The translations under genes and the position numbers were made by a program. From Candidatus Shapirobacteria bacterium GW2011_GWF2_37_20 (GTDB taxonomy: Bacteria; Patescibacteriota; Microgenomatia; UBA12405), in NCBI GenBank assembly GCA_000989305.1, contig LBTB01000007.1, positions 1-32,329 on the forward strand: a DNA stretch of 32,329 nt, given 5' to 3'. The notes beneath the pieces were generated by a model that did no database searches, was not told the DNA's origin, and saw nothing but the letters and a program-made list of their open reading frames with translations. Below, one piece after another: positions 3,274 to 22,650 of this stretch (the stretch's first letter is position 1; the number at the start of each line of letters is the position of its first letter).

Positions 3274-3376
3274 AAGAAAAACAAAGATGGTCTAAAAATA
3301 TAATTAATTAGCGAATTAATTTAAGTTAACAACCTGTAAATAGAGGTTTAATTGAGTCCAGAGCGAAGAGCCATCA

Positions 3377-3661: not shown

Positions 3662-3767
3662 TTGTTTACTCCTTTTTTGGTTTTTTTATAAAATATTAAT
3701 AAGTTACTCTCAGTTAACAAAATTGAATGATTATATTATTATGAACTATTTTGAAAAGATGTTTACT

Positions 3768-5093
3768 CTAATTCTTGATACTAAGTACCTTGTTATGAAG
3801 TAAAAACCTAGTTTTAATTGCCAACAGAATTTTTATCCTATCTTCAGCCGATCCCGCCTTAAGAACATGGAGTAAATATTCTTTAGCTGTATTTCGATCA
3901 AGAGGATCTTTTTGAGGATAGTCGAATTGATTTAAATTTCCAGCTAAAAATTCTTGATGAAGCACCTCACCCCTAAGGGAGTGAAATCTTTCAATTTCAT
4001 CCTTTAGTTGGCTAGTTAATAATTTTTCGTCTAATTTAATTTCATCAATATGAGCTATCAATTGTTGGATTAAATCTTCCTCGGTAATATATGGTTCGTC
4101 GCAGTCATAATCGACATGTCTACCACAGTGGTAGTAGATATATTTTCGAACACTACCGTATTTTGATTTTTTATATTTTTCTTCCGCCGTTATCCATTCT
4201 CCACAACTGCCGCATTTACATAACCCCCTAAAAGGAAATAGTTTTTTATTCCATTCCTTTGGTGGAACGTATAGTTGTTTTTGAGCTTTCTCAAAAATTT
4301 CCCTAGTAATTAATGGCTCATGATTTCCGTGGTAAATTGTTCCCCCAAATTCAAACTCTCCGTAATAATAGGTATTTTTTAATAGTTTATAAATTTTACT
4401 TAATGCCAGTGGTTTACCAGATCTAGTGGTAAAACCAATTTTATCCAGCCATATTTTTATTACTCTGCCACTTTGACCTTTATTGGCCACTCGATCAAAT
4501 ATCTGTTTAACAATTGGTGACCTTTCCTTATCAATTTCGACATAACTAATCCGGTTGTAACTCATAACATTTAAATATCCCAGTGGTGCAATATTTGGTC
4601 TCCATCCAGCTTCGCATTTGGCTTTCATGCCTCTTTTAACATTGATACCCCGGTTATCATTTTCCAGTTTAGCTTGAGAACAGAGAATCATGAGTAAAAA
4701 TTTTTCATTGGGATTGTTGGAAAAAGATTGAGAATATGTCCTAATCGTTTGTAATTTTCCCTGATCCATCAAATCGACCAGAGTACCCAGGTCGCCAGCA
4801 TTTCGACTTAATCTGTCAGGGGCCCAGGTAAGAATGGCGTTGAAAATACCATTTTTAATATCTATTAATAGTTGATTAAAAACTGGCCTTAGCCCTGAAG
4901 ATTTAGCAGAGTGACTTTCTTGGCGGATTTCTTTAATAAATAAAGTCTCTCTTTCTGCCAGGGTTTTCATCTCATTTATTTGAGATTCGATTGACATGGC
5001 TTGCCGTTCGTCAGATTCCGATGATTTTCGGGCGTAAAGACAATAGACAATATCATCTTTTTGCTGGACAGTTCCACTCTTTTTATTAGTCAT
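3768..5093 (-). CDS. Large serine recombinase / site-specific integrase
   Basis: YARKSSESDERQAMSIESQI (resolvase N-terminus with Ser), WAPDRLSRNAGDLGTLVDLMD, LLKNTYYYGEFEFGGTIYHGNHEPLI (recombinase domain), and zinc ribbon CKCGSCGEWITAEEK...YYHCGRHVDYDCDE. Confidence 0.93.
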   Translation of the reverse strand: MTNKKSGTVQQKDDIVYCLYARKSSESDERQAMSIESQINEMKTLAERETLFIKEIRQESHSAKSSGLRPVFNQLLIDIKNGIFNAILTWAPDRLSRNAGDLGTLVDLMDQGKLQTIRTYSQSFSNNPNEKFLLMILCSQAKLENDNRGINVKRGMKAKCEAGWRPNIAPLGYLNVMSYNRISYVEIDKERSPIVKQIFDRVANKGQSGRVIKIWLDKIGFTTRSGKPLALSKIYKLLKNTYYYGEFEFGGTIYHGNHEPLITREIFEKAQKQLYVPPKEWNKKLFPFRGLCKCGSCGEWITAEEKYKKSKYGSVRKYIYYHCGRHVDYDCDEPYITEEDLIQQLIAHIDEIKLDEKLLTSQLKDEIERFHSLRGEVLHQEFLAGNLNQFDYPQKDPLDRNTAKEYLLHVLKAGSAEDRIKILLAIKTRFLLHNKVLSIKN

Positions 5094-5138
5094 TGGTAAT
5101 GACTATACCGCAGTTTTGACTAAAGTCCAGATGATGAA

Positions 5139-5516
5139 TTATTCGGTTATCATTTTATCCCCCGGTTTAGGATTTTCGTTTAATATAAAATTAACACCAA
5201 AAGGTACTTTTGAAGATTCGTGAGAGGAAGTATTTATAATGATATTTTTTTCTCTATAAGCCTGATGGTGATGTTTAAGCCAAAAAATTATGGCCGTTAA
5301 ATTTCCCTCTTTAATTTTTTTTATTAATTGAGATTCAGCTAAATCATTTATAAAATTAGTTCCATTGCCCAATACAACATTGGATTTTTTTCTAAATTTT
5401 TCATTTTCTTTTCGCCAGCGGTAGTAGGTTGCTCGACTAATACCAGCCTGTTGGCAAGCAATTTGAACTATGGGTGTAGTTTTTAAGCATTTAATTACTT
5501 TTCTTTTATTTCTCAT
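5139..5516 (-). CDS. HTH protein resembling phBC6A51-type small terminase subunits
   Basis: IACQQAGISRATYYRWRKENEKF HTH followed by AIIFWLKHHHQAYREK. Confidence 0.6.
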   Translation of the reverse strand: MRNKRKVIKCLKTTPIVQIACQQAGISRATYYRWRKENEKFRKKSNVVLGNGTNFINDLAESQLIKKIKEGNLTAIIFWLKHHHQAYREKNIIINTSSHESSKVPFGVNFILNENPKPGDKMITE

Positions 5517-6843
5517 CTAATATTGCCTTAAACCCAGTTAAATTTTCCCAGCGTTTTTTAATAACTTCGACGTAAGCTGGACATTTTTCCATAACAAAGC
5601 AACGCCGTTTCATTTTGGTGGCGGCAATTAAGGTGCTGCCACTACCACCAAAAGGTTCAATGATTAAATCACTCCTTTTGGTTAAGACTTTTATATAGGG
5701 GATTAGTATTTCAAGGGGCTTTGTTCCAAAAACTACTCCCTGTCCGGAACTGGCCTCGTCCGAAGCTTTATATTCGATAAAGTCTGTCGGCTGATACTTT
5801 TTACCCTTGTCATATCCTTCCCATTGAGGACTTCCTTTAATAGCAAAAAGGGCGGTTTCATATTCCTCCTGAAGACCTTCTGTTTCCTCCTCTAAATTAA
5901 ACTCAATATCGGTGTCCGGAGAGGCTCCGACCATGGCAATGTCGTGTTTTGAGAAAAATTTGTATTTGGCAGAAAAGCCCTGGCTGCGGTTTGGAAGATG
6001 CCAAACGAGCATATTTTTTACTCGCCAATACTTCTCCATTTCGGCCCAAATGATTCTGAGGTTTTTCCAGTTTTCATAAACGATTATGGAGAAGTTTTCC
6101 TTTTGAATTTTGGCAATATTAGCCATCCATAATTCAGTGAAATTTTCGGGGAGTGAATCGGTGCCAAGGTATTTACGGTTTTGTTTTTGACCAAAGCCTT
6201 TTGTTGGTTGTCCATCCCTCTTTTTATCTTTTAGATAATTCAAAAGATAAGGTGGGTCGGTAAAGCACATATCGGCTTTTTCATCACTCATTAATTTCAA
6301 AACATCCTCTTCTTTGGTTGAGTCGCCAACCATGAGCTTGGAATCACCTAATAGCCAAATGTCACCCTCTTTGGTATTAACTTCGTCAACTCCTGCTTTC
6401 TCTAAAGCTTTTTTTAAATTAAATTCTTCGGGAATATCTTCGATGTTAAAAATTTCGTCAAGATCTTCGGAATTAAAGCCGATATCTTTTAAAATATTTT
6501 CATCAAATTCTGCCAGTAACTTTAAATCAAATTCACCGGTGTTTTTATTTAAACGAAGATTTAGCTCTTTTTCCTTGTCGATGTCCGGGATATCAACATA
6601 AATTACCGGGACTTCCATAAAACCCAACTGTTTGGCAGCAAATAATCTGAAGTTACCGCCAATGATAATATTTTTTCTTTCAGGAGCAGAATTGGCAATA
6701 ATCGGATCAACTAATCCAAACCGTTTAATACTCTCCTTAAGATTGTTGGTCTGTTCCTTCGACCAACGCCTGGGGTTGTAATCGGGGGAAATTAAATCAT
6801 TAACACTTACTTTTACTGTTTTTATTTCATTTGAGTCAATCAT
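5506..6843 (-). CDS. ParB-like N-terminal domain fused to DNA N4/N6 methyltransferase
   Basis: PDYNPRRWSKEQTNNLKESIKRFGLVDPIIAN...IIIGGNFRLFAAKQLG (ParB-like), CFTDPPYLLNY (motif IV), IIEPFGGSGSTLIAATKMKRRCFVME (motif I). Start refined to ATG 6843 downstream of TTTAGGAG. Confidence 0.88.
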   Translation of the reverse strand: MIDSNEIKTVKVSVNDLISPDYNPRRWSKEQTNNLKESIKRFGLVDPIIANSAPERKNIIIGGNFRLFAAKQLGFMEVPVIYVDIPDIDKEKELNLRLNKNTGEFDLKLLAEFDENILKDIGFNSEDLDEIFNIEDIPEEFNLKKALEKAGVDEVNTKEGDIWLLGDSKLMVGDSTKEEDVLKLMSDEKADMCFTDPPYLLNYLKDKKRDGQPTKGFGQKQNRKYLGTDSLPENFTELWMANIAKIQKENFSIIVYENWKNLRIIWAEMEKYWRVKNMLVWHLPNRSQGFSAKYKFFSKHDIAMVGASPDTDIEFNLEEETEGLQEEYETALFAIKGSPQWEGYDKGKKYQPTDFIEYKASDEASSGQGVVFGTKPLEILIPYIKVLTKRSDLIIEPFGGSGSTLIAATKMKRRCFVMEKCPAYVEVIKKRWENLTGFKAILDEK

Positions 6844-6850
6844 AAAAAAA

Positions 6851-6904
6851 CTCCTAAATTTATAATCTGCCGACTGACTATCGGTAGTTACCATTTTTTA
6901 GGAG
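6851..6904 (-). promoter_or_regulatory. Structured 5' leader that may sequester the RBS of the ParB-MTase gene
   Basis: On the minus strand CTCCTAAA (6904-6897) can pair with TTTAGGAG (6858-6851), the latter containing the SD. An inner hairpin CCGA..TCGG lies between, and seven T precede the ATG. Confidence 0.45.
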
Positions 6905-7103
6905 CCGTAACATTTTTGACTCATCTCTCATAAGAGACAAGATAATAATAGCATAAGGAAAATATAAATCAAGCGGTAAATTCCATTATAAGTGATAACC
7001 CTTATAATCTTTTTGACAATATTTTGAATATTTTGCCTATTAAAAGAGTAAATATTTAATCCAATATTTTTTCTTTGTTTCAAGATTTTTATCTTTCGGG
7101 CGG

Positions 7104-7109
7104 TATAAT
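7104..7109 (+). promoter_or_regulatory. -10 box of hsdM, leaderless architecture
   Basis: TATAAT 8 nt before ATG 7118; no SD seen in the gap. Confidence 0.5.
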
Positions 7110-7117
7110 CAAAATAT

Positions 7118-8695
7118 ATGTCAGAAGAACAAAAAAGACTCCTCGAAAAACAATTATGGGCTGTAGCAAATATTCTTCGTGGCAAAATGAATGCAGACGA
7201 GTATCGAAACTACATTTTGGGGTTTATTTTTTATAAATACCTTTCGGAAAAGTTAGAACGGTACATCAACGAAAAACTTTTAAATCGGGAAGGTTTTACT
7301 TTTGCCGATATTAAAGAAGACACAAAACAAGGGAAAGCGATCTTGAATGAGGTAAAAAAAGCATGTGTTATTCATTTGGGTTTCTTTTTAAAACCTTCAA
7401 GTTTGTTTGACTATCTTGTTAAAAAAGGAAATGGAGAAATCGAAGGTCAAGACACCTTTATACTCGAGGATTTAAAAAATGTGCTCAATGCAATTGAGCA
7501 AACATCTATGGGCACCGCCAGCGAGGATGATTTTAAAGGCTTGTTTGATGACGTAGTTCTCACATCTCCCAAACTTGGTAAAACTGAACATAAAAAAAAC
7601 GAAGTCATAGTTGAAGTACTCTCCAAGTTAAGTGAGATAGATTTCAAATTGGAGGATTCAAAAAGCGATTTACTGGGTGACGCGTATGAATATCTAATCG
7701 GTGAGTTTGCTGCCGGTGCTGGTAAAAAAGGTGGCGAATTTTATACACCTGCTCAGGTGTCTAGATTGTTGGCTATGATCGTGACCGATGGTAAGAAACG
7801 AATAAAATCTGTTTACGATCCTACTTGTGGCTCTGGATCTCTCTTGCTCAGAATTGGTGATTACACCAATGTGTCGATGTATCTGGGGCAAGAGCTTAAT
7901 CCTACAACTTACAATCTCGCCCGCATGAATATGATTCTTCATGGAGTGCACTTTGACAATTTCAGCATTCGTCAAGGGGACACTCTAGTTGATGATATGC
8001 ACTTAGATTTACAGGCGGAAGCGGTAGTAGCCAATCCTCCATTTTCAGCGAAATGGAAAGGTGATAGTGATCCCGTTTTGGCTGCTGATGAACGTTTTAC
8101 TCAATACGGTAGATTAGCGCCCAAGGGTGCAGCTGACTTTGCCTTCGTAACCCACATGTTGTATCACCTTGCAGATAATGGGGTAATGGCCGTAGTGCTA
8201 CCTCATGGGGCACTTTTTCGCTCTGGAGCAGAAGAACATATCAGAAAATATATTATTGAAAAACAAAATTATCTCGATGCGGTAATAGGATTGCCCGCCG
8301 ATCTCTTTTACGGAACAGGAATTCCAGCAACAGTTCTTGTTTTTAAAAAATGTCGTAAAGACAATGAAGATATTTTATTCATTGATGCCTCAAAAGAGTT
8401 TGAAAGAGGTAAGAGTCAAACTAGACTAACCGGCGAAAATATTGAAAAAATATTCAGCACATACAAAGAAAGAAAAGAAATTGAAAGGTATTCTCATAAA
8501 GCAACAATAGAAGAGGTTAGAGAAAATGAATACAACTTAAATATTCCAAGATACGTAGATACTTTTGAGGAAGAGTTAGAAATTGACATAAAGCAAATTT
8601 CACAAGACTTTAAAGAAGTTTATAAAAAAGAGAAAATTTTGCACGACAAGATATCTAAGTTTTGTGATGAGTTAAAAATAGATAAGCCTTTTTGA
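7118..8695 (+). CDS. hsdM: Type I restriction-modification DNA methyltransferase (M subunit)
   Basis: GGEFYTPAQVSRLLAMI, YDPTCGSGSLLLRI, AVVANPPFSAKW. Confidence 0.96.
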   Translation: MSEEQKRLLEKQLWAVANILRGKMNADEYRNYILGFIFYKYLSEKLERYINEKLLNREGFTFADIKEDTKQGKAILNEVKKACVIHLGFFLKPSSLFDYLVKKGNGEIEGQDTFILEDLKNVLNAIEQTSMGTASEDDFKGLFDDVVLTSPKLGKTEHKKNEVIVEVLSKLSEIDFKLEDSKSDLLGDAYEYLIGEFAAGAGKKGGEFYTPAQVSRLLAMIVTDGKKRIKSVYDPTCGSGSLLLRIGDYTNVSMYLGQELNPTTYNLARMNMILHGVHFDNFSIRQGDTLVDDMHLDLQAEAVVANPPFSAKWKGDSDPVLAADERFTQYGRLAPKGAADFAFVTHMLYHLADNGVMAVVLPHGALFRSGAEEHIRKYIIEKQNYLDAVIGLPADLFYGTGIPATVLVFKKCRKDNEDILFIDASKEFERGKSQTRLTGENIEKIFSTYKERKEIERYSHKATIEEVRENEYNLNIPRYVDTFEEELEIDIKQISQDFKEVYKKEKILHDKISKFCDELKIDKPF

Positions 8696-8697
8696 AT

Positions 8698-9915
8698 ATG
8701 ATTACTTCACGAACAAAAAAAATACAACAACAAGATATACCAAAGCTTCGTTTTAAAAATTTTGACGACACTTGGAATGAAAAAGAATTAGGTGATTTAT
8801 TTATTGAAAGATCAGAGAGAGGTGGTGGTGAAAAATACAATCTTCTGTCAATAACATTAAGAGATGGCATAAAAAAACAAGAATCTTCTAACAAAACTGA
8901 TAATTCTAGTGAAGATAAAAGCAACTATAAAATTGTTCGTGTCGGTGATATTGCGTACAACACAATGAGAATGTGGCAGGGAGCATCTGGGGTCTCTGAT
9001 TTAGAAGGAATTGTAAGTCCCGCATATACTGTCGTTAAACTAAAAAGTGGTTGTGTTGATTTCTATAAATATCTTTTTAAAAAACCACGCACAATATTTG
9101 ATTTTTATCGTTATTCTCAAGGACTTACATCTGATACCTGGAATTTGAAGTATAAACATTTTTCAGAAGTTGCGGTAAAGATACCTGATAAACAAGAGCA
9201 AGAAAAAATCGCTTCTTTTTTAGAGTCGGTAGATAAGTTTATTGAAAATCTACAAACACATAAAGAATATTTGCTTGAATATAAAAAAGGAATGATGCAA
9301 AAAATTTTCTCCAAAGAAATTTGTTTCAGAGATGAGAAAGAAAATCTGTATCCAGATTGGAAGAAGAAGAAACTGAGTGACTTTTTGATTGAAAGAAATG
9401 AACAAGTTCCTAAAAGTGACCAGTATCCTTTAATGGCCTTTGTGGCATATAAGGGAGTGACACCCAAAGGAGAAAGATACAATCGGGAGTTTCTAGTTAA
9501 TGATAATGAAAACAAAAAATACAAACGAACAGAATATGGTGATTTTATTTATAGTTCAAATAACCTTGAAACTGGCTCTATAGGTCTAAATTGTTTTGGT
9601 TTCGCAAGCATTTCACCTGTTTACAGTATTTTTAAGATTACAGAATCGTGTGACCACAAATTTATGGGTAGTTATTTAGTTCGTAAAAGCTTTATAAATA
9701 AAATGATTAGATACAGACAAGGTGTAGTATATGGACAATGGAAAATTCACGAATCAGATTTTTTAAGGATCGAAGAGAAGATTCCCTCTATAGAAGAGCA
9801 ACAAAAAATCGCTGATTTTTTGTCAGCTATTGATGAATTAATCTCGATTAAACGTGAGCAGATAACCAATGCCGAGCAGTGGAAAAAGGGATTATTACAA
9901 CAAATGTTTGTCTAA
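8698..9915 (+). CDS. hsdS: Type I R-M specificity subunit
   Basis: Two TRD/conserved-helix repeats: IPDKQEQEKIASFLESVDKFIENLQTHKEYLLEYKKGMMQKIF and IPSIEEQQKIADFLSAIDELISIKREQITNAEQWKKGLLQQMF. ATG 8698; an in-frame TTG at 8692 overlaps the hsdM stop. Confidence 0.95.
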   Translation: MITSRTKKIQQQDIPKLRFKNFDDTWNEKELGDLFIERSERGGGEKYNLLSITLRDGIKKQESSNKTDNSSEDKSNYKIVRVGDIAYNTMRMWQGASGVSDLEGIVSPAYTVVKLKSGCVDFYKYLFKKPRTIFDFYRYSQGLTSDTWNLKYKHFSEVAVKIPDKQEQEKIASFLESVDKFIENLQTHKEYLLEYKKGMMQKIFSKEICFRDEKENLYPDWKKKKLSDFLIERNEQVPKSDQYPLMAFVAYKGVTPKGERYNREFLVNDNENKKYKRTEYGDFIYSSNNLETGSIGLNCFGFASISPVYSIFKITESCDHKFMGSYLVRKSFINKMIRYRQGVVYGQWKIHESDFLRIEEKIPSIEEQQKIADFLSAIDELISIKREQITNAEQWKKGLLQQMFV

Positions 9916-9919
9916 CACT

Positions 9920-12715
9920 ATGCCACAATCAGAACTTCAACTAGAAAAAGAGTTAATCGAACAACTAACCACATTAGGTTTTGAGAAAGTTGCATTACCC
10001 GACAATGTAACACTTGAGACAAATTTACGTTCCCAGCTTGAAAAATTTAATGGGATTAAGCTTACCGACAACGAATTCGCTCGGATTATTAATCACCTTC
10101 AAAAAGGTGATCGCTTTCAAAAAGCTAAGACGCTTAGGGACCGTTATTTACTTGCTCGCGATGACGAAAGCACTGTATATATTCGTTTTTTTAACATGGA
10201 CAAATGGTGTAAAAACGAATATCAAGTTACTCACCAACTCACTCAGGCAGGTAAATACGAGAATCGTTATGATGTAACACTACTCATTAATGGCTTGCCA
10301 CTGGTCCAAATTGAACTCAAGCGACGTGGTATGGAAATGAAAGAGGCATTTAATCAGATTCAGCGCTATCACCGCCACTCTTTTACAGGTACCTTATTTG
10401 AATATATTCAAATATTTGTCATTTCTAATGGAGTTAACACTAAATATTTTTCTAATAACCCCAAACAATCATTTGAGCAAACCTTTTTCTGGACTGACGA
10501 AGCGAATCAAAAGATAACCCAACTCAGCGAATTTGCTGACGCATTCTTAGAGAAATGTAAGGTCTCAAGTATGATTGCCGAATACATAATATTAGCTGAG
10601 TCACTGCAGATCCCAATGGTCCTTCGTCCATATCAATACTTTGCGGTCAAAGCTATTGAAAAAAAAGTTAGGGAATCAAATAAAAACGGCTATATTTGGC
10701 ATACAACTGGATCGGGTAAAACTCTTACATCCTACAAAGCAAGCCAAATTCTCTCCCAAATGCCAGAAATCAAAAAGGTTTTATTTGTGGTAGACAGAAA
10801 AGATTTAGACATTCAAACTACCAAAGAATTCAACTCGTTTTCCGATGGTTCAGTTGACGGTACAGATAATACACGCAATTTGGTCAAACAGCTCAAAGAC
10901 CCAAATAGAAAACTAATTGTAACTACGATTCAAAAACTGGATATAGCGATCTCCAGAGCATCATATCTAAGTCAATTCCAATCACTTCTTGATGGTAAAG
11001 TGGTAATAATTTTTGACGAATGTCACCGAAGCCAGTTTGGTTTAACACATGCTCGTATTACTAGTGCCTTCAAAAACGCCCAGTTGTTTGGTTTTACTGG
11101 TACACCCATCTTTGCAGATAATAATATCGGTGGAGTAACCACAGCTGATGTTTTTGGAGAATGTTTACACAAATACATCATCACCCATGCTATAGATGAC
11201 AATAACGTTCTAGGTTTCGCGGTTGAATATGTAGGTAAATACACCCAAAAAGATGCCAATACACTCGACGCCGATATCTTTGCTGAAACACTAGTAGAAG
11301 GTATTGACACTAAGGAGGTACTTGAAAGCGATGAACGGCTGAATAAGATTGCTGATTATGTGTTGGCTGATTGGAAACGCAAGACCAAGAACGGAAAGTT
11401 TAACGCACTCTTTGCTACTCCAAATATTGAAGTTCTCAAAAAATATTACACATTGCTTAAGCAGAAAAAAACAGACGATTTTAAAATGGCCACTATCTTC
11501 ACCTATCAAGCCAATGAAGACGACAGCACCGACATGCTCGATGTAGATATTTTTGCTGGAGAAGGAACTGTTGGTAACCAGCACTCTCGTGATTTTTTGG
11601 AAGGATGTATTTCTGACTATAATGCCCTGTACGGTACCAATTATTCAACAGAGCGTTTTTACGATTATTATCGCAACCTACAACAACGGATTAAAGATAA
11701 AGAGGTCGATTTAGTGCTTGTCGTCAATATGTTTTTAACTGGATTTGACAGCCCAAGACTTAATACCTTATATGTCGACAAAAATTTACGTTATCACGGA
11801 TTGATTCAGGCTTATTCTAGAACGAATCGACTTTTAAACTCTGACAAACCACACGGCAATATTATTTCATTTAGAAATCTCAAACTCAACACCGACAAAG
11901 CGCTAGCATTATTTGGGGACGAAAATGCCAAAGAAATTGTTTTTAAAAAACCATATGAGGAACAAAAAAAGGATTTTAAGGAAAAGTTAACCCAGTTACG
12001 AGAAAAGGTCCCAACAGTTGACTCCGTAGATAGTTTGCAGGGAGAAGAAGAAAAGGCCGTTTTCGTCAAGACTTTTCGTGATTTACTCCGAATTAAATCT
12101 TCACTCGAGACCTTTGCTGGTTTTTCCTTTAATGATTTAGATATTTCTGAGCAAGAGTTTTATGACTATCAGAGCAAGTATTTGGACATTCACGAAGAAC
12201 GAAAAAATCATGACACAGACATTGAATCTATATTAGACCAAATCGACTTTGAACTTGAATTGACGGTACGCGATATTATTGATTTTGATTATATAATTCA
12301 GCTAATAATCGGGCTAAAAGATATAAGTTCTGAGATAATACGTCAGAAAAAGACCGAAGACATTCTCAAACTTTTTGATAGAGACGTGAAGCTTCGTAAG
12401 AAAAAAGACTTGATACGTAAATTTATTGAGGAAAATTTGCCAAAAATTGATAAGGGAGAAAGTGTTGGAAATGCATTTGAAGAGTTCTGGTCGAGTGAAC
12501 GTTCGACTGCTTTGAAAGAGGTCGCTCAATCTGAGAGTATTCCTCTTGAAAAATTCCAGAATGTCATTGGTGAGTATCTTTATACCCAAAAGTTACCCCA
12601 CGACCAAGATATAGTCGATTTATTACCAGAATCTCCAAGAATTATGGAGCGTCAGGGAATTGTTGACCGTATCAAAAATGCAATAGAAAAAATTATTGAT
12701 ATTTTTGAATGGTAA
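9920..12715 (+). CDS. hsdR: Type I R-M restriction subunit
   Basis: QIELKRRGMEMKEAF (nuclease domain), GYIWHTTGSGKTLTSYKA (Walker A), IIFDECHRSQFG, FTGTPIF. Start refined to MPQSELQ at 9920. Confidence 0.96.
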   Translation: MPQSELQLEKELIEQLTTLGFEKVALPDNVTLETNLRSQLEKFNGIKLTDNEFARIINHLQKGDRFQKAKTLRDRYLLARDDESTVYIRFFNMDKWCKNEYQVTHQLTQAGKYENRYDVTLLINGLPLVQIELKRRGMEMKEAFNQIQRYHRHSFTGTLFEYIQIFVISNGVNTKYFSNNPKQSFEQTFFWTDEANQKITQLSEFADAFLEKCKVSSMIAEYIILAESLQIPMVLRPYQYFAVKAIEKKVRESNKNGYIWHTTGSGKTLTSYKASQILSQMPEIKKVLFVVDRKDLDIQTTKEFNSFSDGSVDGTDNTRNLVKQLKDPNRKLIVTTIQKLDIAISRASYLSQFQSLLDGKVVIIFDECHRSQFGLTHARITSAFKNAQLFGFTGTPIFADNNIGGVTTADVFGECLHKYIITHAIDDNNVLGFAVEYVGKYTQKDANTLDADIFAETLVEGIDTKEVLESDERLNKIADYVLADWKRKTKNGKFNALFATPNIEVLKKYYTLLKQKKTDDFKMATIFTYQANEDDSTDMLDVDIFAGEGTVGNQHSRDFLEGCISDYNALYGTNYSTERFYDYYRNLQQRIKDKEVDLVLVVNMFLTGFDSPRLNTLYVDKNLRYHGLIQAYSRTNRLLNSDKPHGNIISFRNLKLNTDKALALFGDENAKEIVFKKPYEEQKKDFKEKLTQLREKVPTVDSVDSLQGEEEKAVFVKTFRDLLRIKSSLETFAGFSFNDLDISEQEFYDYQSKYLDIHEERKNHDTDIESILDQIDFELELTVRDIIDFDYIIQLIIGLKDISSEIIRQKKTEDILKLFDRDVKLRKKKDLIRKFIEENLPKIDKGESVGNAFEEFWSSERSTALKEVAQSESIPLEKFQNVIGEYLYTQKLPHDQDIVDLLPESPRIMERQGIVDRIKNAIEKIIDIFEW

Positions 12716-12727
12716 AAAAAATTAATT

Positions 12728-15286
12728 ATGAAAACTGATCAACAAATACTGAATGAATTGTTGTCCCAAGTGAATTCTGATCCATTCAAAATTATTGAAG
12801 ATACCTTAATAATAAAGCCTAATTTTTCAAGAGAGTCAGTGATTAAATATCTTTCCGAGTTTTCCAATAGAATAAGTGGAGTAGGATTCTTGTCGAATGA
12901 AATAGTAGACCTAATAGTCAGACTGGGTAAGCTATATAAGCCTGGTTCTATATTAGATCCAGCCTGTGGAATGTGTCAGATATTATCAAGGATTGACTAT
13001 TGTAAAGATATAAATGGTTTCGAGTTAAATAGTAAGCTTGCAAAAATTTCTAAAGCACTTAACCCAGACATAAAAATAAAAGCTAATAATTTTTTAAATG
13101 ATGACATTAGAGAAAAATACGATCAAATAATCCTAGTGCCACCATTTGGGATGCGATTACAGATTCTCAATAAGCACGAAACATCAGAAAGCGCGTTTAT
13201 AAAGAAATCATTAAACTTACTTAATAGTAACGGAAGTCTAATTGCTTTAGTTCCTAATGGGTTTTTATTTTCTCCTCGATTTGAGGTTTTAAGGAAATCA
13301 ATTCTTACGGAATATTATTTAGAAGCTGTGATAGAACTTAATTCTGGGGTATTCAAAAATACAGGTATATTAACATCTGTTCTCGTTATAAAAAAAGACA
13401 ATCCCATACATAAAGAAAAAGTATATTTTGGTCAATATAAAAATGATTCACAAACCATCGTTAATAATTTTCAAGAACAAACTGGAGATTTTTGGATAGA
13501 CAGATCTAGACTTAATAATAGAATTGATAGAAGTTTTTTCAACCCTGAATTTGATGATATTGATAAACAATTGTCGGGGATAGAGGTTAAAAAACTAGAA
13601 GAGATTGCTAAATTAATTAGGGGTCCTTATATACCAAGAGAGGAATTGTATGATTCTGGAAATTATTTAGTAATGAGTGGAAAAAATATAAAAGACGGAA
13701 AACTCAATCTAACATCAAACGACAAATATATAAAAGAATACAGTCCACGTCAGGAAAAAGCGTTATTAAGAAAAGGCGACATTGTTGTAAGTCTTATTTT
13801 TAGCGAAAACAAAATTTACATTCACAATTCAGAAGAAAAAATAATTGCCAACAACAATTGTGCAATTATTAGGTCCACAAACCTGGGACCATATCTATCT
13901 TCATATATATCCTCTGTACAAGGCAACCTTTTAATAAAAAAACAGATGGATAGAAAGCGTCATGGTGATGTGATTCCTAGCATCAACATCAGTGACCTTA
14001 GACAATTAATAATTCCGATCGTTTCTATAGATGATCCGAATAGGATTGTCGATCAGAATATTTCTGCCAGTGAAAGATATGCACTAATCGAGTCACTTCT
14101 AGAAGATCAACTTGTAAAGAAAGGTTGGGATGTAAGAGACGAGAGTGGTCCTCCCCATATTTCCTTAGATTTAGGTCTTTATATTAATGGAGAACTGGCT
14201 AGTTTTGTAGAAGTTAAATCTCCTAGAGTAAATCTGGAAAGAGTTGGTACACAAGTTTCCTATGTCATGAACGAAGTAGGAGTAACGACAGCTTTTGTTG
14301 TAAGGGGTAACAATTTATATCGCTTTTCGTTGGGAAAATTTATAGAAATCGATGAGTTTCCTACAGCGACAGAGTTTAATAATATTACCCAGAATAAGGT
14401 TAGCTCCGGTGAAAAATATAATGAATCAATCTCGAATCTTGAAAAAATGGTTAGCCAGCTACTTTCTCAGAACAAAGAACTTATCGAAAGAACAAAAAGA
14501 ATCGAGACTACGGTTAATGAAATAAAGGACATATTAGTCTCACTGCAAAATGACTTTAAGGAAATTAAAAAAGAAGATCGTAAAGAAGAGGAAAAGCTTG
14601 TTTTGCTATATAAAAAAATTGATAAAAGACTGGATGAGAAAAATGAAGAACTGAAAGAAGAAATAGACGCTTATACAGACATTGCTAAATCACTCATAAC
14701 AAATTGGAATAAACTTGAACCCTTGAGTAAGGAATATTATCCTCTTGCTGAGTATTTATATTCCAAACTACAATCCCTGCCCGATATAGATTTTTCACCC
14801 GTTATTCTTCAATACTGTAGAACTATTGAGAACGAACTATTAAGGAAGCTGTTTATTAAATTTACTAAATTTCTGCTAAACAAATATGATCCTCTTGAAG
14901 ACTTTTTAGTTGATGATTTATCTAAAGATGGAAAAGGGAAAGACAAGCCAATAAAACAATTTGCACATATGATCATCCAGTGTAGAGACAAAAATGACGA
15001 CGAAATAAAATACACCTTAGGAACTATGCATTTTATTCTAAATTATGCGGCTTCTCAAAAAAATAAAGAAACGAGTCCTTTAATTAAGGAGTTTGTTGAC
15101 TATATTGAAGATAAATTTGATAGTAAAATCGTACTTTCGACAAATTATTTAAAAGAAATAAAAGATATTATTGACGATTTTAGAAACAAGTGTGCTCACC
15201 CTTCTAAATTAAGTTTTAACGAAGCGAGAGAATGCAAAAAACGAATGCCGATGGATATAAATACTTTTATAGATTGTCAAAAATAA
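12728..15286 (+). CDS. Fusion: degenerate N6-MTase (HsdM-like), TRD-like region, PD-(D/E)XK-like (HSDR_N-like) domain, coiled coil, C-terminal HEPN-like motif
   Basis: LDPACGMCQIL (motif I-like); IILVPPFGM replaces NPPF; KLEEIAKLIRGPYIPREEL..GNYLVMSGKNI (TRD-like); LDLGLYINGELASFVEVKSPR (D..EVK); long charged helix; FRNKCAHP (R-x4-H). Confidence 0.7.
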   Translation: MKTDQQILNELLSQVNSDPFKIIEDTLIIKPNFSRESVIKYLSEFSNRISGVGFLSNEIVDLIVRLGKLYKPGSILDPACGMCQILSRIDYCKDINGFELNSKLAKISKALNPDIKIKANNFLNDDIREKYDQIILVPPFGMRLQILNKHETSESAFIKKSLNLLNSNGSLIALVPNGFLFSPRFEVLRKSILTEYYLEAVIELNSGVFKNTGILTSVLVIKKDNPIHKEKVYFGQYKNDSQTIVNNFQEQTGDFWIDRSRLNNRIDRSFFNPEFDDIDKQLSGIEVKKLEEIAKLIRGPYIPREELYDSGNYLVMSGKNIKDGKLNLTSNDKYIKEYSPRQEKALLRKGDIVVSLIFSENKIYIHNSEEKIIANNNCAIIRSTNLGPYLSSYISSVQGNLLIKKQMDRKRHGDVIPSINISDLRQLIIPIVSIDDPNRIVDQNISASERYALIESLLEDQLVKKGWDVRDESGPPHISLDLGLYINGELASFVEVKSPRVNLERVGTQVSYVMNEVGVTTAFVVRGNNLYRFSLGKFIEIDEFPTATEFNNITQNKVSSGEKYNESISNLEKMVSQLLSQNKELIERTKRIETTVNEIKDILVSLQNDFKEIKKEDRKEEEKLVLLYKKIDKRLDEKNEELKEEIDAYTDIAKSLITNWNKLEPLSKEYYPLAEYLYSKLQSLPDIDFSPVILQYCRTIENELLRKLFIKFTKFLLNKYDPLEDFLVDDLSKDGKGKDKPIKQFAHMIIQCRDKNDDEIKYTLGTMHFILNYAASQKNKETSPLIKEFVDYIEDKFDSKIVLSTNYLKEIKDIIDDFRNKCAHPSKLSFNEARECKKRMPMDINTFIDCQK

Positions 15287-15293
15287 TAACAAC

Positions 15294-15962
15294 ATGTATA
15301 AATTATCGCCTTCTGATTTTGCTTATCTTTATGAAGAATGTAAGCATTGTTATTATCTAAAAATAAAATATGGCATTACTCAGCCAAGCATGCCGATGCC
15401 AGGGGTGTTTTCGGCTTTAAATACCAGAATTCAGGGTTCTTTAGTTGGAAAAAACTTTAACGTTTTATCCCCTAGTTTGCCCGACTGTCAGGTTATTTTC
15501 CAGGAAGGATTTGTTGAATCAATTCCTATTCCCGACACTTCTTGTTTTATTAAAGGTAAGTATGATCTTCTATGTCAGAATTCAGATAGTACTTATACTT
15601 TAGTTGATTTGAAAATAAGCCAAGCGGATGTGGGTAAAATTGAAAAATATAAAACCCAATTAACGGCATATAAATACGCCATGGAGAATCCAAAAAGTAG
15701 TAATCCAATTAAGATTACTAAAATGGGATTATTAATTTTTTATCCCAACACAGTTTCTTTTGAAAATGAGAGTGCTAAGGTTGATTTTCCGCCCAAATGG
15801 TTAGAAATACCCGCCGATGAAGCTGCTTTTGTGAATTTTATTAAAGAAGTTGATAAACTTTTAGCTGGTCCGCTTCCAGCAGATAATCCGGAATGTAAAT
15901 GGTGCAAATATCTTAAGGAGAATAAAGAATCAATGGGTGATCAAGAGAAATTCCCATTTTGA
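15294..15962 (+). CDS. PD-(D/E)XK nuclease, Cas4/RecB-like, with paired Cys
   Basis: FIKGKYDLLCQNSDSTYTLVDLKIS...KYKTQLTAYKYAME core; CKHC at N-terminus and CKWC at C-terminus suggest an Fe-S cluster. Confidence 0.75.
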   Translation: MYKLSPSDFAYLYEECKHCYYLKIKYGITQPSMPMPGVFSALNTRIQGSLVGKNFNVLSPSLPDCQVIFQEGFVESIPIPDTSCFIKGKYDLLCQNSDSTYTLVDLKISQADVGKIEKYKTQLTAYKYAMENPKSSNPIKITKMGLLIFYPNTVSFENESAKVDFPPKWLEIPADEAAFVNFIKEVDKLLAGPLPADNPECKWCKYLKENKESMGDQEKFPF

Positions 15963-15982
15963 TTAAATGCTAATATTGCTTA

Positions 15983-17605
15983 GTGTTGAAAAAAGCTGTT
16001 AGTTTTATTGCACCGGTTCTTTTTTTGATTTTAGCTCTTGTTGTTTCATTTCTCCTTACTTCTCCGTCTCAACCTAAATTTGTAATCGATATTCTGTTTT
16101 ATACAAAAGTATTAATATTATTTTCTCTTGTCTTTACTCTGACTTATTTTATTGATATCGCTTTTTCCGGCTTCAAAAAACCGGTAGTTAAGCTAATTAC
16201 TTTTGGGATAACCTTTATTCTTTCTTGTTTTTTATTCTTCATAGAAGACAAGATAACCAAGGACAGTCAACTGAATTTTGTTTTTCAAATATTTTTAGTG
16301 GTGATTGTGGGAGTATATGTCTTTTATTTTATCCGCTGGCCCCTAAAAGGTATTTTTTATTTAATTAAAAAAATAAAATGGAAATTTGTTCAAAGCTTTG
16401 TTGCCTATATTGAACACTTGATTGAACCAATTTATTATTTTCCCTTAAAACTAGTTACTTATTCGACTTATTATCTAATAAAATTTTTAATTAAGGTTAC
16501 GATTGAACTGATTAAAATCATTATTGATGCTGGCAAATTTACCTTTAGAAGTTTTAGAAATTTTCTAAAATCCTTATTAGTTTTCTGTCTTGGCTTATAT
16601 GTTATTGCCTCACTTTTTGTGATTGTTGATTATATTCGGACTCAATATGGTCAATACGGCAAGTTTTTTTGTTCGGCTGGAGTTAAAAATAAATTAAAAG
16701 GGACGGTGGTGAGGGTTGTGGGTGGTTATTCTGAAGGAACAGGTTTTTTTATCTCAGAAAATCAAGTGTTAACTAATTTTCATGTCATTGCTGATGAACC
16801 TAGTCCTAAAATAATTTTCCCTAATGGTAAATTTATTACTCCCATAAAAATTACTGGTGATAAAGATGCTGATTTAGCTATTTTATTTACCGAGTATGAA
16901 TACCCAGAGATGGTTATGTCACTACCTAGTAAAATTTCCATCAAGGATGAAGAACCGCTTCTGGCAACTGGTTTTGCTATGGGAACAGATTTAGCTGGTA
17001 AAGCCACTGTCTTGAAGGGTAATTTTGCTGATTTTAGGGAGTCAAAATATGAAAGTGTCAGTTATATTCAAACTAATATTTCTCTAGTGGAAGGGATGAG
17101 TGGTGGCCCACTGACAGACCAATGCGGTCAGGTGGTTGGGATAAATACTGCCGGTCTAGCGGGATTATCAATGTTTATATCCGGAAGTGAAGCCAAAAAA
17201 ATAATTCCTGATTTTTCAGATCAAGAAATTGAAAAAATTGATGTCGATCCCAGTAAATCACCGGAAGATGCAGTTACTGCCTTTTATACTTATCTTAAGG
17301 CTAGAAAAATGAAGGAGGGTTTTGATCTATTAAGCCGGGAATATCTTCAAAAGACTAATTTTGAAGAGTGGACTAGCCGATTTAAGGATATTTTGGATGT
17401 AGAAATTGTTAAATCAGAAAAAGTGGAAGATTCAAAAGATACTGTTAATGTAAAATTTGGCACTAAAAATTGGGTGACTGAAGAAACTGAATTTCACTAT
17501 TACGAGGGAACTTGGAAAACAATTTTTGAAGACGGGAAATATAAGATGCTGAAAAGTAATATTAAAGAAATTGAAGATCCTGATTTTGATTGGTTTTATG
17601 ACTAA
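15983..17605 (+). CDS. Multi-TM membrane protein with trypsin-like (HtrA/S1C-like) protease domain and C-terminal NTF2-like region
   Basis: Several TM helices; triad motifs VLTNFHVIAD (His), DADLAIL (Asp), EGMSGGPL (Ser). GTG start. Confidence 0.8.
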   Translation: MLKKAVSFIAPVLFLILALVVSFLLTSPSQPKFVIDILFYTKVLILFSLVFTLTYFIDIAFSGFKKPVVKLITFGITFILSCFLFFIEDKITKDSQLNFVFQIFLVVIVGVYVFYFIRWPLKGIFYLIKKIKWKFVQSFVAYIEHLIEPIYYFPLKLVTYSTYYLIKFLIKVTIELIKIIIDAGKFTFRSFRNFLKSLLVFCLGLYVIASLFVIVDYIRTQYGQYGKFFCSAGVKNKLKGTVVRVVGGYSEGTGFFISENQVLTNFHVIADEPSPKIIFPNGKFITPIKITGDKDADLAILFTEYEYPEMVMSLPSKISIKDEEPLLATGFAMGTDLAGKATVLKGNFADFRESKYESVSYIQTNISLVEGMSGGPLTDQCGQVVGINTAGLAGLSMFISGSEAKKIIPDFSDQEIEKIDVDPSKSPEDAVTAFYTYLKARKMKEGFDLLSREYLQKTNFEEWTSRFKDILDVEIVKSEKVEDSKDTVNVKFGTKNWVTEETEFHYYEGTWKTIFEDGKYKMLKSNIKEIEDPDFDWFYD

Positions 17606-17652
17606 TTATCCGGTATCAGTTATATTTGACACCGTAAATGATATTATGAGTT

Positions 17653-18198
17653 ATGGTCAAGATCAAAAAGATAAAAAAATCAGATGATCCTAGGGTGGGT
17701 GATAAAAACTTAATCCCAAGAAACGCCGCCATAATAGAACAAACCCTAGATTCTCTAGGAATAACCGCCAGGGTTGCCGAAGTAAACTATCGACCAAAAG
17801 ATACTGAATTTTGTCTTGAAATAGCGCTAGGTACGCCACTCGAAAGCATTACCAAGCTACATAAGGATGTAGCCATGGCTTTAGCTTCTCCTACCGGTGA
17901 TGTTGATATTGAAGCCCCAATTCCTGGACGATCTTTGATCGCAATTAGATTGCCATTTGATAAGCAGAGGTATGAGGCGGCAATTAATGCTTTTAAATTG
18001 AGGCAGAAAGAAGAAAAAAGAAATTCCAAAAAAAGCCGTACCACTGACAAAACCAAAACTGACAGACCAGAGTTTCCTAAAACGATTCGCGACTATCTAG
18101 CTGTAGTTTTTTATATTATTGCCGGTATTTTGGATATAACTACCCAGTACCTGCGTAAGTTAGGTAATTTTATTGAAGGCAGAGATCGTCAATTTTAA
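17653..18198 (+). CDS. Stand-alone FtsK alpha-domain-like protein
   Basis: IIEQTLDSLGITARVAEVNYRPKDTEFCLEIALGTPLESITKLHKDVAMALASPTGDVDIEAPIPGRSLIAIRLP resembles the FtsK alpha domain. Confidence 0.7.
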   Translation: MVKIKKIKKSDDPRVGDKNLIPRNAAIIEQTLDSLGITARVAEVNYRPKDTEFCLEIALGTPLESITKLHKDVAMALASPTGDVDIEAPIPGRSLIAIRLPFDKQRYEAAINAFKLRQKEEKRNSKKSRTTDKTKTDRPEFPKTIRDYLAVVFYIIAGILDITTQYLRKLGNFIEGRDRQF

Positions 18199-18209
18199 TT
18201 TATATAAAC

Positions 18210-19235
18210 ATGCTGACTTATAAACCATCCCAAGAAGCCACTATAGAACGCGATGTCATGTTTGATGAGGCGGTTAAGCTAATCCAAGAAACTGGAGTCG
18301 CTTCGGCCTCGCTTATCCAAAGACGTTTAAAATTAGGTTATGCCAGATCAGCCCGACTTTTAGATGAGCTCGAACAAAGCGGAATTATTGGAGAAGTAAA
18401 TGGAGCTAAACCCAGAGATATTTTAATTCCACATAAAAACAGAGAAGGTCAAACAATTATTCCTAAAAAAGAACCGAGTCCAGTAAAAATTGAGTTTGAA
18501 GAGACATTAGCTAGTTGGAAAAAGACAAAACACGCCGACAATGTATCTGAAAATTTTAAAATTGAACTTGGAATTGATGAAAATAAAAAAGAAGTAGATT
18601 TAAATCTTGAAAAATATGGCAACTTATTAATAATCGGCTCACAATTTACCTCAACTGTTGACTTGTTAAATAATATATTAACCACTAGTATGGCTAAATA
18701 TTCACCTAATGAATTGAAATTAATTGTCATTGATGGCGTTAAAGGCGATCTGATTGTCCCCAATCAAGCTTCTCATTTATTGACGCCAATGATTGTCGAA
18801 GCAGAAAAGTCCGTTAGTGCTTTAAAATGGTGTGTCAATGAGATTGAAAGACGGATGAAACTGGATAATCTAAATCCTCAAGCTAAGGTTCTAATTTTGA
18901 TCAATTCACTTAATCAAATTCTAAATTTTTCTCCATCAGAGATTGAAGATAATATTTATCGGATCATGGTCCAGGGAAGAAAATATGGCTTCTATTTTAT
19001 TATCAGCACTGACTACGCCAATCCCAGAACAGCCAAATCAATTATAGCCAATAGTCCAGCTAAACTAGTCTTCAAGCCAACGGATAAAAAGATTGCTAGA
19101 GAGTCGGGTATACCCGAAGCCATCGAGCTTTCATCACCCGATGAGGCTATTTTAGAAACTATGTATGAAGGCAAAAGAAAACTGACAATCAATAAAGTTG
19201 ATCCAAAGAAAATCTATAGAGAAATATTTGAATAG
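18210..19235 (+). CDS. FtsK-like protein with N-terminal gamma wHTH and C-terminal motor domain lacking Walker A
   Basis: ASASLIQRRLKLGYARSARLLDELEQSGIIGEVNGAKPRDIL (gamma domain) precedes NLLIIGSQFTSTVDLLNNIL (Walker A position, no GxGKS) and LKLIVIDGVKGDL...SHLLTPMIVEAEKSVSALKWCVNEIERRM (motor signature). Confidence 0.75.
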   Translation: MLTYKPSQEATIERDVMFDEAVKLIQETGVASASLIQRRLKLGYARSARLLDELEQSGIIGEVNGAKPRDILIPHKNREGQTIIPKKEPSPVKIEFEETLASWKKTKHADNVSENFKIELGIDENKKEVDLNLEKYGNLLIIGSQFTSTVDLLNNILTTSMAKYSPNELKLIVIDGVKGDLIVPNQASHLLTPMIVEAEKSVSALKWCVNEIERRMKLDNLNPQAKVLILINSLNQILNFSPSEIEDNIYRIMVQGRKYGFYFIISTDYANPRTAKSIIANSPAKLVFKPTDKKIARESGIPEAIELSSPDEAILETMYEGKRKLTINKVDPKKIYREIFE

Positions 19236-19284
19236 TGTTTTTCTATATCTATAAATATCTAAACTTATTCCATCAAATATACGC

Positions 19285-19464
19285 TTATTTCTTTATAAAT
19301 TTTGTTGTTTCCATTAATATTTTGACTTCACCATTACTGTAAATATTTCTGTGATTTTCATTATCTTTATCCAAATTATTTAGAGCGCTGTGTACTAAGT
19401 TATATCCATTAGTAGAGAGTAATTCATTTATCTTTTTCAATAACTCTGGAGACATATTGATCAT
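19285..19464 (-). CDS. Short hypothetical ORF (59 aa)
   Basis: Minus strand: MINMSPELLKKINELLSTNGYNLVHSALNNLDKDNENHRNIYSNGEVKILMETTKFIKK*. Below the ORF-track threshold; fills a gap. Confidence 0.4.
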   Translation of the reverse strand: MINMSPELLKKINELLSTNGYNLVHSALNNLDKDNENHRNIYSNGEVKILMETTKFIKK

Positions 19465-19548
19465 TACTCAATTATATCCTGAAATATAATTAACAATAGT
19501 TTATAGGTACTCATTTAGCTTAAATAGTAATATTTTAAGAGCCTGATT

Positions 19549-19576
19549 TTGAAAAAACACCAGTGAACGATACAAT
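19549..19576 (+). promoter_or_regulatory. Promoter TTGAAA-16-TACAAT, 8 nt before ATG 19585
   Basis: -35 at 19549-19554, -10 at 19571-19576; leaderless spacing. Confidence 0.5.
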
Positions 19577-19584
19577 CCGCATAT

Positions 19585-19749
19585 ATGACAAAAGAAATTA
19601 TTTACAACATGTTGATATCTGGTATTAAGGGATTTTTTGAAGGACTATGGTCCCTGCTTGTTGCCCTTCCTTGGTGGGTAAAGATTTTAGTAATTGTTTT
19701 AGTTTTATTTCCAATTTTCTTTAATAGATATAAAGGAAAAAGATATTAA
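19585..19749 (+). CDS. Small single-TM protein (54 aa)
   Basis: MTKEIIYNMLISGIKGFFEGLWSLLVALPWWVKILVIVLVLFPIFFNRYKGKRY*. TAATG overlap with the next gene. Confidence 0.65.
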   Translation: MTKEIIYNMLISGIKGFFEGLWSLLVALPWWVKILVIVLVLFPIFFNRYKGKRY

Positions 19750-20840
19750 TGGACTACCTAAAAGACCGACAATATTATGAAGATTTATATGATTTACACA
19801 CTATCGAAATTTGTATTGATTGGGTAAAATTAGCTTTAAAAAAGTGTAAAGAAGACAAGATTTTTAGTAAATTTCCAAAAAAAGATAAGATAAGAGGTAA
19901 AAATATTTTGATTGAGTTGCCACTTTATTACCAAAAAGGTGAACGTTATAGAGATAAAGAAAAGACGATTAACGAATGGATAGAAAAAGACAAAAATAAA
20001 CAAGATAAATTTGACGACACAAGAGAACTGGACAGTATTTTTTGCCAGGAATGTAACTGGGCAATGAAATTAGAGGGAAAAAGTCTGCACGATTTTTCTG
20101 ATGAACCATTAAGAATGCTTTTCTTTTTTGAGTGTCCTAATTGTCATAAACGAAGAGGTATTTTTGATGACGGAGAAGAATATAAAAGTAAACCAAGACT
20201 CTGTCCCAAGTGCGGTGATGAGCTTAAAATCAGTTATAAAAATGAAAAAGAAGTTTCATCCTTTACTGAAAAATGTAAAAGTTGTGATTATAAACTCGAA
20301 GATAAAACCGATTTTAAACTTTATGACGAAAAACAGAAGAAGAGGGAAGAGAGAAAAGAATATTTATTAAATAAATATCGTAAAGAATGTTGTTTAACAC
20401 CTGAAAAGGGTGAGAATTATGTTTCCAGTCAAACCCAATTAATAAACTCAATCGATCGAATTAAAGAAACGGAAAGAAAAGAAGCCGATCCTATTTACCA
20501 AAAGGCCAGAGCCTTAAAGAAATTGAAAGTATTTGATATGGAAAAGTTGTTAAAAGAAACCTTGGAAAAAGAAAAATATATCGACCTTTCCTTTGATAAA
20601 CCCGAGATTACTAAGGATGTAGTAATTCCATTCTCGGTTCAGGAATCGGACACTTCAAGAAGTGATTATGACAGCCAAAATAATCTAAAAAAGTTGATTA
20701 AAAAGACCTTAGAAGATACCAATTGGCGATTAATGAGTGATGGAATTAGCCAAAGGCTTGGGATATTAAATGGTAGAATCAGGGGCTACGAAAACGAGGA
20801 TGATTTAGTAAAAATTGTAAAATATGCAAATGATCAATGA
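19749..20840 (+). CDS. Multi-zinc-ribbon hypothetical protein
   Basis: Four CxxC pairs: CQEC, CPNC, CPKC, CKSC. Confidence 0.7.
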   Translation: MDYLKDRQYYEDLYDLHTIEICIDWVKLALKKCKEDKIFSKFPKKDKIRGKNILIELPLYYQKGERYRDKEKTINEWIEKDKNKQDKFDDTRELDSIFCQECNWAMKLEGKSLHDFSDEPLRMLFFFECPNCHKRRGIFDDGEEYKSKPRLCPKCGDELKISYKNEKEVSSFTEKCKSCDYKLEDKTDFKLYDEKQKKREERKEYLLNKYRKECCLTPEKGENYVSSQTQLINSIDRIKETERKEADPIYQKARALKKLKVFDMEKLLKETLEKEKYIDLSFDKPEITKDVVIPFSVQESDTSRSDYDSQNNLKKLIKKTLEDTNWRLMSDGISQRLGILNGRIRGYENEDDLVKIVKYANDQ

Positions 20841-22389
20841 CTCTAATCTTACAAAACTCAAAACTGGACTATTATTTCTAGATTTCGACCAGATCAACAA
20901 GGAGCCAGAATATGAAGCAATGGGAAGACAGACAAAAAAGCATTCTGTAATCTCCAAAAGATACCAATATGCTCAGGATTTAGAAAGGTCATTCATCGAG
21001 GCAAAACTTACCTCCAAGCTATTGCTTGAGGTAGATAATCTAATAAATGTTGATGAAAAAATATTTGAGCCTGAAGAAATAATTTCATACTACGACGGAA
21101 TATTCCTGGAATACATTCATCAAATAAAAGACAAACTTTTCCGATTAATATGGTGGATAATTCAAAAGGATGATGTGAAGAATAAAATAGAAGAGCCTGA
21201 CTCAATCAATCTGGGAAATTTTAAATCATATAAAGACATATTACTTGTGATAGGCATTAAAAAATATTTGGAAGATTGGAACCAAGGATTATCTAGCGGA
21301 ATTGCAACTGCCTTAAGAAAACGGACACAACATCACCATTTTATTAGTAGGCTGCAATTGAACGAAGACTTTCAAAAAATCAGGATGTCAAAGTCAATGC
21401 TTTCTTCGGCTTCAATTGGGTACTTGTCTGAATACGGAAAAAATAAAATGAAACAAATTGGTGAAGAATCGTATAAAAAGTGGAGAGATGACGTAATTAA
21501 CAAACAAAAAAATACATTGGATCAAATAGAAAGTAATTTAGAAAATGTGTCTAAGAAACTCATTGAGTTTTATAAATTTCCCATTGAGCCCAAAAAACAA
21601 GCCGAAATATTTAATACATATGCAGAACAGCAAAAAAAATTTGACATTGAAAACAGCACGTCTTTAGCTAAGATCGATGGGGCAATAAAAGGTCTCATTG
21701 ACACGTTTATATTACATACAAAGTCATTTTTTAAAGAACAGTTAGTTTCAATTTACCTAGTAGGAAGTGTACCTCGCGGCGAGTTTGTTCTGGGTTCTTC
21801 AGACATTAATATCGTGATAATAACCAATAGTGACGCCTTTGACTCTTTTCCATCCAGAATGGATCCACTAATAAAAGTTAGATTTTTCAGTGAAAATAGC
21901 TTTTTAAGTGAAAACAATAAGAAATGGAGATTTATTTGTTGGTCTGACGGACTTCTTATTGAAGGTAAACAGTTTAAATTTAAAAAAGATGACTTTCCAA
22001 AGCCCGGTACGTTTTTAACATTACTTCTAAACAGCAATACTATTGATGAATTAGAAGAATTAAAACATAAAGTTGCTAATTTGAAGTCACCATCAAGAAA
22101 AATAATGCGGTTTTTCTGTTTAGAGGCAGTCAAATTAATGCTGGATTTTGGTTTTGGTGTTGCAATGGCAAACAAACCTTTTTACTCATCCAGCAGAAAA
22201 GTCAAAATTGAATACGTCAAAAAGATGTTTCCGTCGGCATTAAGACAAACAAAAACATTTGAAATTATATATAAAGGGGCAACTGTTAATCAGAAAGATT
22301 ACGTTTTCATGTTAGACACATTTCTTAAAAATGCGAGAAAAAACTACACCAAGCTTTCTGAAGTTGCCCAAAGTGCCGTAGAGGGTTAG
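20824..22389 (+). CDS. Putative HEPN-like plus MNT-type nucleotidyltransferase fusion protein
   Basis: N-terminal all-helical region with LRKRTQHHHFISRL (R-x4-H); C-terminal VGSVPRGEFVLGSSDINIVII (GS...SDxN, Pol-beta NTase-like). Overlaps the upstream ORF by 17 nt. Confidence 0.6.
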   Translation: MQMINDSNLTKLKTGLLFLDFDQINKEPEYEAMGRQTKKHSVISKRYQYAQDLERSFIEAKLTSKLLLEVDNLINVDEKIFEPEEIISYYDGIFLEYIHQIKDKLFRLIWWIIQKDDVKNKIEEPDSINLGNFKSYKDILLVIGIKKYLEDWNQGLSSGIATALRKRTQHHHFISRLQLNEDFQKIRMSKSMLSSASIGYLSEYGKNKMKQIGEESYKKWRDDVINKQKNTLDQIESNLENVSKKLIEFYKFPIEPKKQAEIFNTYAEQQKKFDIENSTSLAKIDGAIKGLIDTFILHTKSFFKEQLVSIYLVGSVPRGEFVLGSSDINIVIITNSDAFDSFPSRMDPLIKVRFFSENSFLSENNKKWRFICWSDGLLIEGKQFKFKKDDFPKPGTFLTLLLNSNTIDELEELKHKVANLKSPSRKIMRFFCLEAVKLMLDFGFGVAMANKPFYSSSRKVKIEYVKKMFPSALRQTKTFEIIYKGATVNQKDYVFMLDTFLKNARKNYTKLSEVAQSAVEG

Positions 22390-22446
22390 TTATATCATCT
22401 TGTATATCAAACAATATCACCGTTTCGGTTCATTCCTTTTTTATAG

Positions 22447-22493
22447 TGTCTCATTTGTCTCATTTAGCTTCAAATCTTTGATAGAATGAGACA
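22447..22493. repeat. TGTCTCATTT direct pair plus inverted copy AATGAGACA, composite stem-loop
   Basis: TGTCTCATTT at 22447-22456 and 22456-22465 (one shared base); AATGAGACA at 22485-22493; inner TCAAA-TC-TTTGA. Confidence 0.6.
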
Positions 22494-22541
22494 GTGGGTA
22501 AGAGGGTGTTATAGGGATAGAAAGGTTCCAGACCCCAATGC

Positions 22542-22650
22542 TCCGCCAAAGGGTCAAAGTTCTATGCGACCCCTGTGGTATAGTAACTTTTCCCCAACCT
22601 GTGTTCTTTATTTTTCAAAAGCAACATTTTTTGTTAGATAGCCTATAATA
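22542..22650 (+). repeat. Right boundary repeat (attR-like) merging into the promoter of the S66 peptidase gene
   Basis: First 23 bp identical to 3163-3185; diverged similarity continues to the TATAAT at 22644. Confidence 0.75.

Follow-up and report, generated by a model that had tools for sequence, protein, structure and literature searches.

Three overlapping genes in a Shapirobacteria genome lie at the right tip of an integrated, probably phage-satellite-like element

Three tightly packed genes on contig LBTB01000007.1 of Candidatus Shapirobacteria bacterium GW2011_GWF2_37_20 raise the question of whether they form a unit of their own or belong to something larger. The window analyzed here is the whole stretch of 32,329 nucleotides, and the genes follow one another on its plus strand: P0001 (19585–19749), a 54-aa ORF with a single transmembrane (TM) segment; P0002 (19749–20840), a 363-aa double zinc-ribbon protein; and P0003 (20824–22389), a 521-aa protein with a degenerate NTase domain. 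As read from the sequence, P0001 and P0002 meet in TAATG and P0002 overlaps P0003 by 17 nt. The ORFs and junctions are thus as given in a preliminary description of this DNA, and the overlaps bear out the tight packing noted there. That description took the trio for a self-contained cargo module at the right end of an element. Its observation of an overlapping three-gene arrangement is partly confirmed and its interpretation partly supported: the trio is the right-hand tip of a larger integrated element and not a conserved unit.

A search for conserved triplets of these families, the check proposed in the preliminary description, returned no second trio within the searches made. These covered 96 related genomes and then a larger sample of about 374 from the class, which also sets the scope of the P0003 search. 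P0002-family matches were obtained in 20 of the 374 genomes (18 substantial). Substantial P0003-family matches came from the window, G262 and G046 only, besides a fragment in G085 and NTase-only matches, and the two other genomes with the P0003 family lack P0002. The window alone, among the approximately 374 class genomes, carries both, and P0003 was found beside P0002 in none of the other loci among 62 P0002-family loci. The trio as a conserved module was rejected, as the two families share a locus only in the window among the neighborhoods read, and no TM ORF directly precedes the other P0002 homologues in the cases checked. P0001 and P0003 are neighbors or cargo beside P0002.

These results bear on the idea that the trio is a self-contained defense or toxin–antitoxin operon composed of a TM effector, a zinc-ribbon sensor and an NTase regulator. 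The tight overlaps, the location beside restriction-modification genes and a weak PADLOC match of P0003 to PDC-S09 (E = 5.5e-5) would fit such an operon, but it is strongly weakened by the finding of the trio nowhere else and of each family apart, and we regard it as very unlikely. P0003 itself adds to this. The HEPN half of its earlier HEPN-NTase label fell away, since the profile libraries searched gave no HEPN match and the sole trace is an R-x4-H (R167–H172) conserved in three sequences. The NTase half survives in weakened form: P0003 matches PF01909 (NTP_transf_2) below the cut-off (E = 0.0053) and one homologue matches above it (E = 3e-5), but the motif, GS..RGE..SDIN, is degenerate, having Asn at a position that is Asp in a Vibrio relative, and the second Asp is replaced by Asn in all three P0003 homologues. 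A HEPN-MNT toxin–antitoxin pair is not supported, on these two grounds. Phage and plasmid collections searched with P0002 and P0003 yielded only Vibrio NTase-domain matches, and neither single-protein scans of viral contigs nor a scan with the P0003 alignment gave a match. P0003 is variable cargo.

The same holds for P0001. This ORF is strongly hydrophobic: of the window's 87 ORFs of 40–80 aa, no other reaches a Kyte-Doolittle mean of 2.4 over 19 residues. A single genome of the same family contains a weak relative (36%, E = 1.5e-5; only E = 0.004 by local tblastn). Its expression is putative, and possible. The TTGAAA-16-TACAAT promoter proposed for it is present as a sequence at 19549–19576 and matches the consensus well, but it does not rise above chance and would leave almost no 5′ leader; promoter-like sites in the region number 11, fewer than the 16.4 (sd 4.4) in its shuffles.

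What, then, is the trio the tip of? The window holds an element of roughly 19 kb spanning about 3186–22564, with an integrase and attachment sites. A tRNA-Ser (GCT) gene at 3082–3169 on the plus strand (ARAGORN) provides the integration site at its 3′ end. The left attachment repeat (3163–3203; identical over 23 bp, 93% over 41 bp, and with a weaker likeness over about 150 bp) recurs at 22542–22582, beyond which the sequence matches the chromosome of G004, a congeneric genome (L075) that has the same site without the element. The G004 site aligns with the joined flanks in 168 of 199 columns and with the left junction alone in 163 of 205; because the flanks resemble each other, this alignment supports the exact break point and is not by itself proof of it. 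The right repeat starts 153 bp past the stop codon of P0003, which corroborates the right-end position assigned earlier to the trio. Between lies a 30-bp conserved motif (22437–22466, plus strand) with the consensus CTTTTTATAGTGTCTCATTTGTCTCATTTA, from which the window copy differs by one mismatch. A tRNA T-arm-like stretch, GGTTCCAGACCC, is also seen at the right end (22510–22545) and is common to several elements.

The left part of the element is read from the minus strand. It encodes a 441-aa large serine recombinase (3768–5093; Pfam resolvase, recombinase and zinc-ribbon domains; phrog_95 integrase, E = 1.7e-62), a 125-aa HTH protein resembling the terminase small subunit, TerS (5139–5516; phrog_309, E = 1.2e-10; HTH_Tnp_1_2), and a 462-aa fusion of ParB and an N6/N4 DNA methyltransferase (MTase) (5506–6894; Pfam; phrog_498, E = 6.7e-77). 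The terminase large subunit, TerL, is absent from this copy. Cargo follows on the plus strand: type I restriction-modification genes for HsdM, HsdS and HsdR (7118–12715; Pfam, PADLOC), an 852-aa fusion of an N6-MTase and a specificity domain (12728–15286; Pfam, PADLOC), a PD-(D/E)XK nuclease-like protein (15294–15962; Pfam) and a trypsin-like protease with a hydrophobic N-terminal half (15983–17605; Pfam Trypsin_2, E = 8.9e-20). A relative of this protease (L049, 4624–5715) lies directly upstream of the P0002 homologue of G183; the two proteases form a cluster of two, and their pairing was read from sequence position. Two plus-strand FtsK ORFs (17653–19235; Pfam) stand before the trio; FtsK is here split and rearranged, with the alpha domain in the first ORF (17653–18198) and gamma preceding a partial motor in the second (18210–19235). 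The Walker A region of the partial motor reads GSQFTST, without the usual Lys.

The element is not solitary. The layout that recurs is serine recombinase, TerL (in some), TerS, ParB-MTase, variable cargo (in many cases restriction-modification), frequently a P0002-family gene, and then the 30-bp motif; records carrying it include Woese-, Shapiro-, Roizman-, Pace- and Saccharibacteria, among others. Nine class genomes have the TerS-like HTH and ParB-MTase genes on one strand and cargo and P0002 on the other; the recombinase joins the former strand where the contig reaches, and most have the motif. Clustering of 20 neighborhood stretches, of which two had been included for P0003, recovered P0002 from 18 genomes; a related recombinase was present in 14, ParB-MTase in 11, TerS in 9 and TerL in 7. 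In a set of 70 loci, ParB-MTase was present in 31, TerS and the motif in 23 each, the recombinase in 21 and TerL in 16. The motif had 51 sites at up to seven mismatches in 3.55 Mb of loci, not all of them independent because the loci partly overlap, vs. none in a shuffle. Attachment repeats are clear in the window only: among other elements, a 15-bp candidate was found in L108 and none in five others.

When the search was begun from TerL, 33 of the 374 class genomes matched, and only eight of these also have P0002, which is therefore not essential. Many TerL genomes lacking P0002 have the same layout, several with the motif. P0002 as an essential core gene was thus rejected, and the recombinase–terminase–methyltransferase block together with the motif defines the family better. 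P0002 is a recurrent, non-universal right-end gene of this family. Scanning a genome collection with the P0002 family turned up 66 loci, most of them in Patescibacteria. Some carry other labels: MAGs assigned to Omnitrophota, Bacteroidetes, Bacilli and Woesearchaeota, perhaps through misbinning, and one isolate, Chitinophaga niastensis. The relative in C. niastensis DSM 24859 (30%; L150, 9761–10867) is a possible culturable handle. A core element gene occurs within the available flank in 27 of 52 P0002 loci, and about half show none.

The zinc-ribbon call for P0002 is well founded. Its eight Cys residues form two ribbons (99/102/129/132 and 152/155/176/179); seven are invariant across 42 aligned sequences and C132 is conserved in at least 90%, and Pfam DZR matches just above the cut-off. 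The fold is predicted with confidence (very high mean per-residue score, good overall score), and comparison with PDB and viral structures gave no match at E ≤ 0.001. The best PDB matches are to ribosomal eS24 (E = 0.009) and, ranking below it, to the FtsK motor; each extends over some 90 residues, and they are a hint only. Weak DUF1233 excisionase matches (E about 0.06) were not relied on. Long forms of the family have a predicted C-terminal zinc finger and HTH-wing, both missing from the short form in the window. The ribbons and the wing-type C-terminus predicted for the long form suggest that P0002 probably binds nucleic acid.

No capsid or portal gene was found in the window element or the small elements examined, as judged from the size and arrangement of the genes and from a small number of profile searches; the small elements have few genes and no recognized structural gene. 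Could they be decayed prophages that lost these genes independently? Phage-type packaging genes, and the missing TerL of the window copy, are what such decay might leave, but one gene order and one right-end motif recur across many genera, and the TerLs of the relatives, assigned at E = 1e-81 to 1e-84, keep intact Walker A, Walker B and nuclease Asp motifs. In IMG/VR, a serine recombinase occurs in 34 of 80 loci of TerL relatives. The closest TerLs there commonly adjoin one, and after those farther removed come portal, head protease and major head protein genes, as profile-checked in three contigs. In the TerL tree, made by a quick method with SH-aLRT as the only support, 72 entries (51 with recombinase) separate from 36 phage-type entries by branches with an SH-aLRT of 100; three exceptions were labeled portal by a gene-size rule alone. 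The element TerLs are thus a lineage apart from portal-linked ones. Taken together, the TerL motifs, IMG/VR neighbors and tree favor an old satellite-like family, and independent decay appears quite unlikely. Two tandem TerL genes lie beside a serine recombinase in five IMG/VR contigs (L231, L235, L239, L242 and L300).

In PICIs, TerS usually occurs alone, and cfPICIs usually have a capsid set. Judged against the definitions of phage satellites (PICI, cfPICI, P4-like, PLE and PICMI; PMC13376191, PMC11389934), the present elements share a size of roughly 10–26 kb, an integrase, attachment repeats (clear in the window), a phage-type packaging gene and defense cargo, with no structural genes found. 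They differ in that many relatives carry TerL and TerS without capsid genes and that no replication module was recognized in them; repressor-like and HTH regulators were seen in relatives. The PLE of Vibrio cholerae is a satellite-type island also excised by a large serine recombinase, but the part of its description consulted does not mention a ParB-MTase/TerS/TerL block (PMC6002521). Tailed-phage contigs of IMG/VR (L254, L277 and L283) have related TerLs, 38–43% identical to an element TerL, and two of them (L277 and L283) also have TerL beside ParB-MTase; in these phages TerL is followed by portal and head genes, a place commonly taken in the elements by the serine recombinase.

We consider it probable that the genes at 19585–22389 are the right tip of an integrated, phage-satellite-like element that would work as follows. 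Integration and excision at the 3′ end of tRNA-Ser would be the work of the serine recombinase; the terminase module (TerS in the window, TerS and TerL in many relatives) would bring element DNA into the heads of another phage; and the ParB-methyltransferase may mark that DNA. The middle would carry exchangeable cargo, often restriction-modification, and P0002 would be read together with whatever cargo adjoins, P0001 and P0003 being such neighbors. Mobility, helper-dependent packaging and the role of P0002 are here proposed, and for P0001 and P0003 no function has support. A different kind of integrative element, whose terminase-like proteins serve another role such as DNA processing for transfer, would suit the FtsK-like genes of the window copy, since both the helper and the terminase activity of the satellite reading are presumed; we hold it unlikely, as TerL has kept the motifs for ATPase and for nuclease and occurs together with TerS.

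A study reporting genomic islands and prophages in Patescibacteria uses neither the word terminase nor the word satellite (PMC12455944). We did not find this element family in the open-access literature searched, where it appears undescribed; no paper there paired a satellite term with Patescibacteria or Candidate Phyla Radiation, which is not proof of novelty. A broader and more tentative proposal, which we would put somewhat short of even, is that Patescibacteria harbor widespread elements with a complete terminase (TerL and TerS), no capsid, serine-recombinase integration and a common end motif, which may ferry defense systems between ultra-small bacteria in the heads of other phages. The exchange of defense genes among these tiny-genome bacteria is poorly understood, and a family with a terminase and no particle genes offers testable markers for tracking it: the recombinase, TerL and the end motif. 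If the satellite reading is true, the range of phage satellites would be widened.
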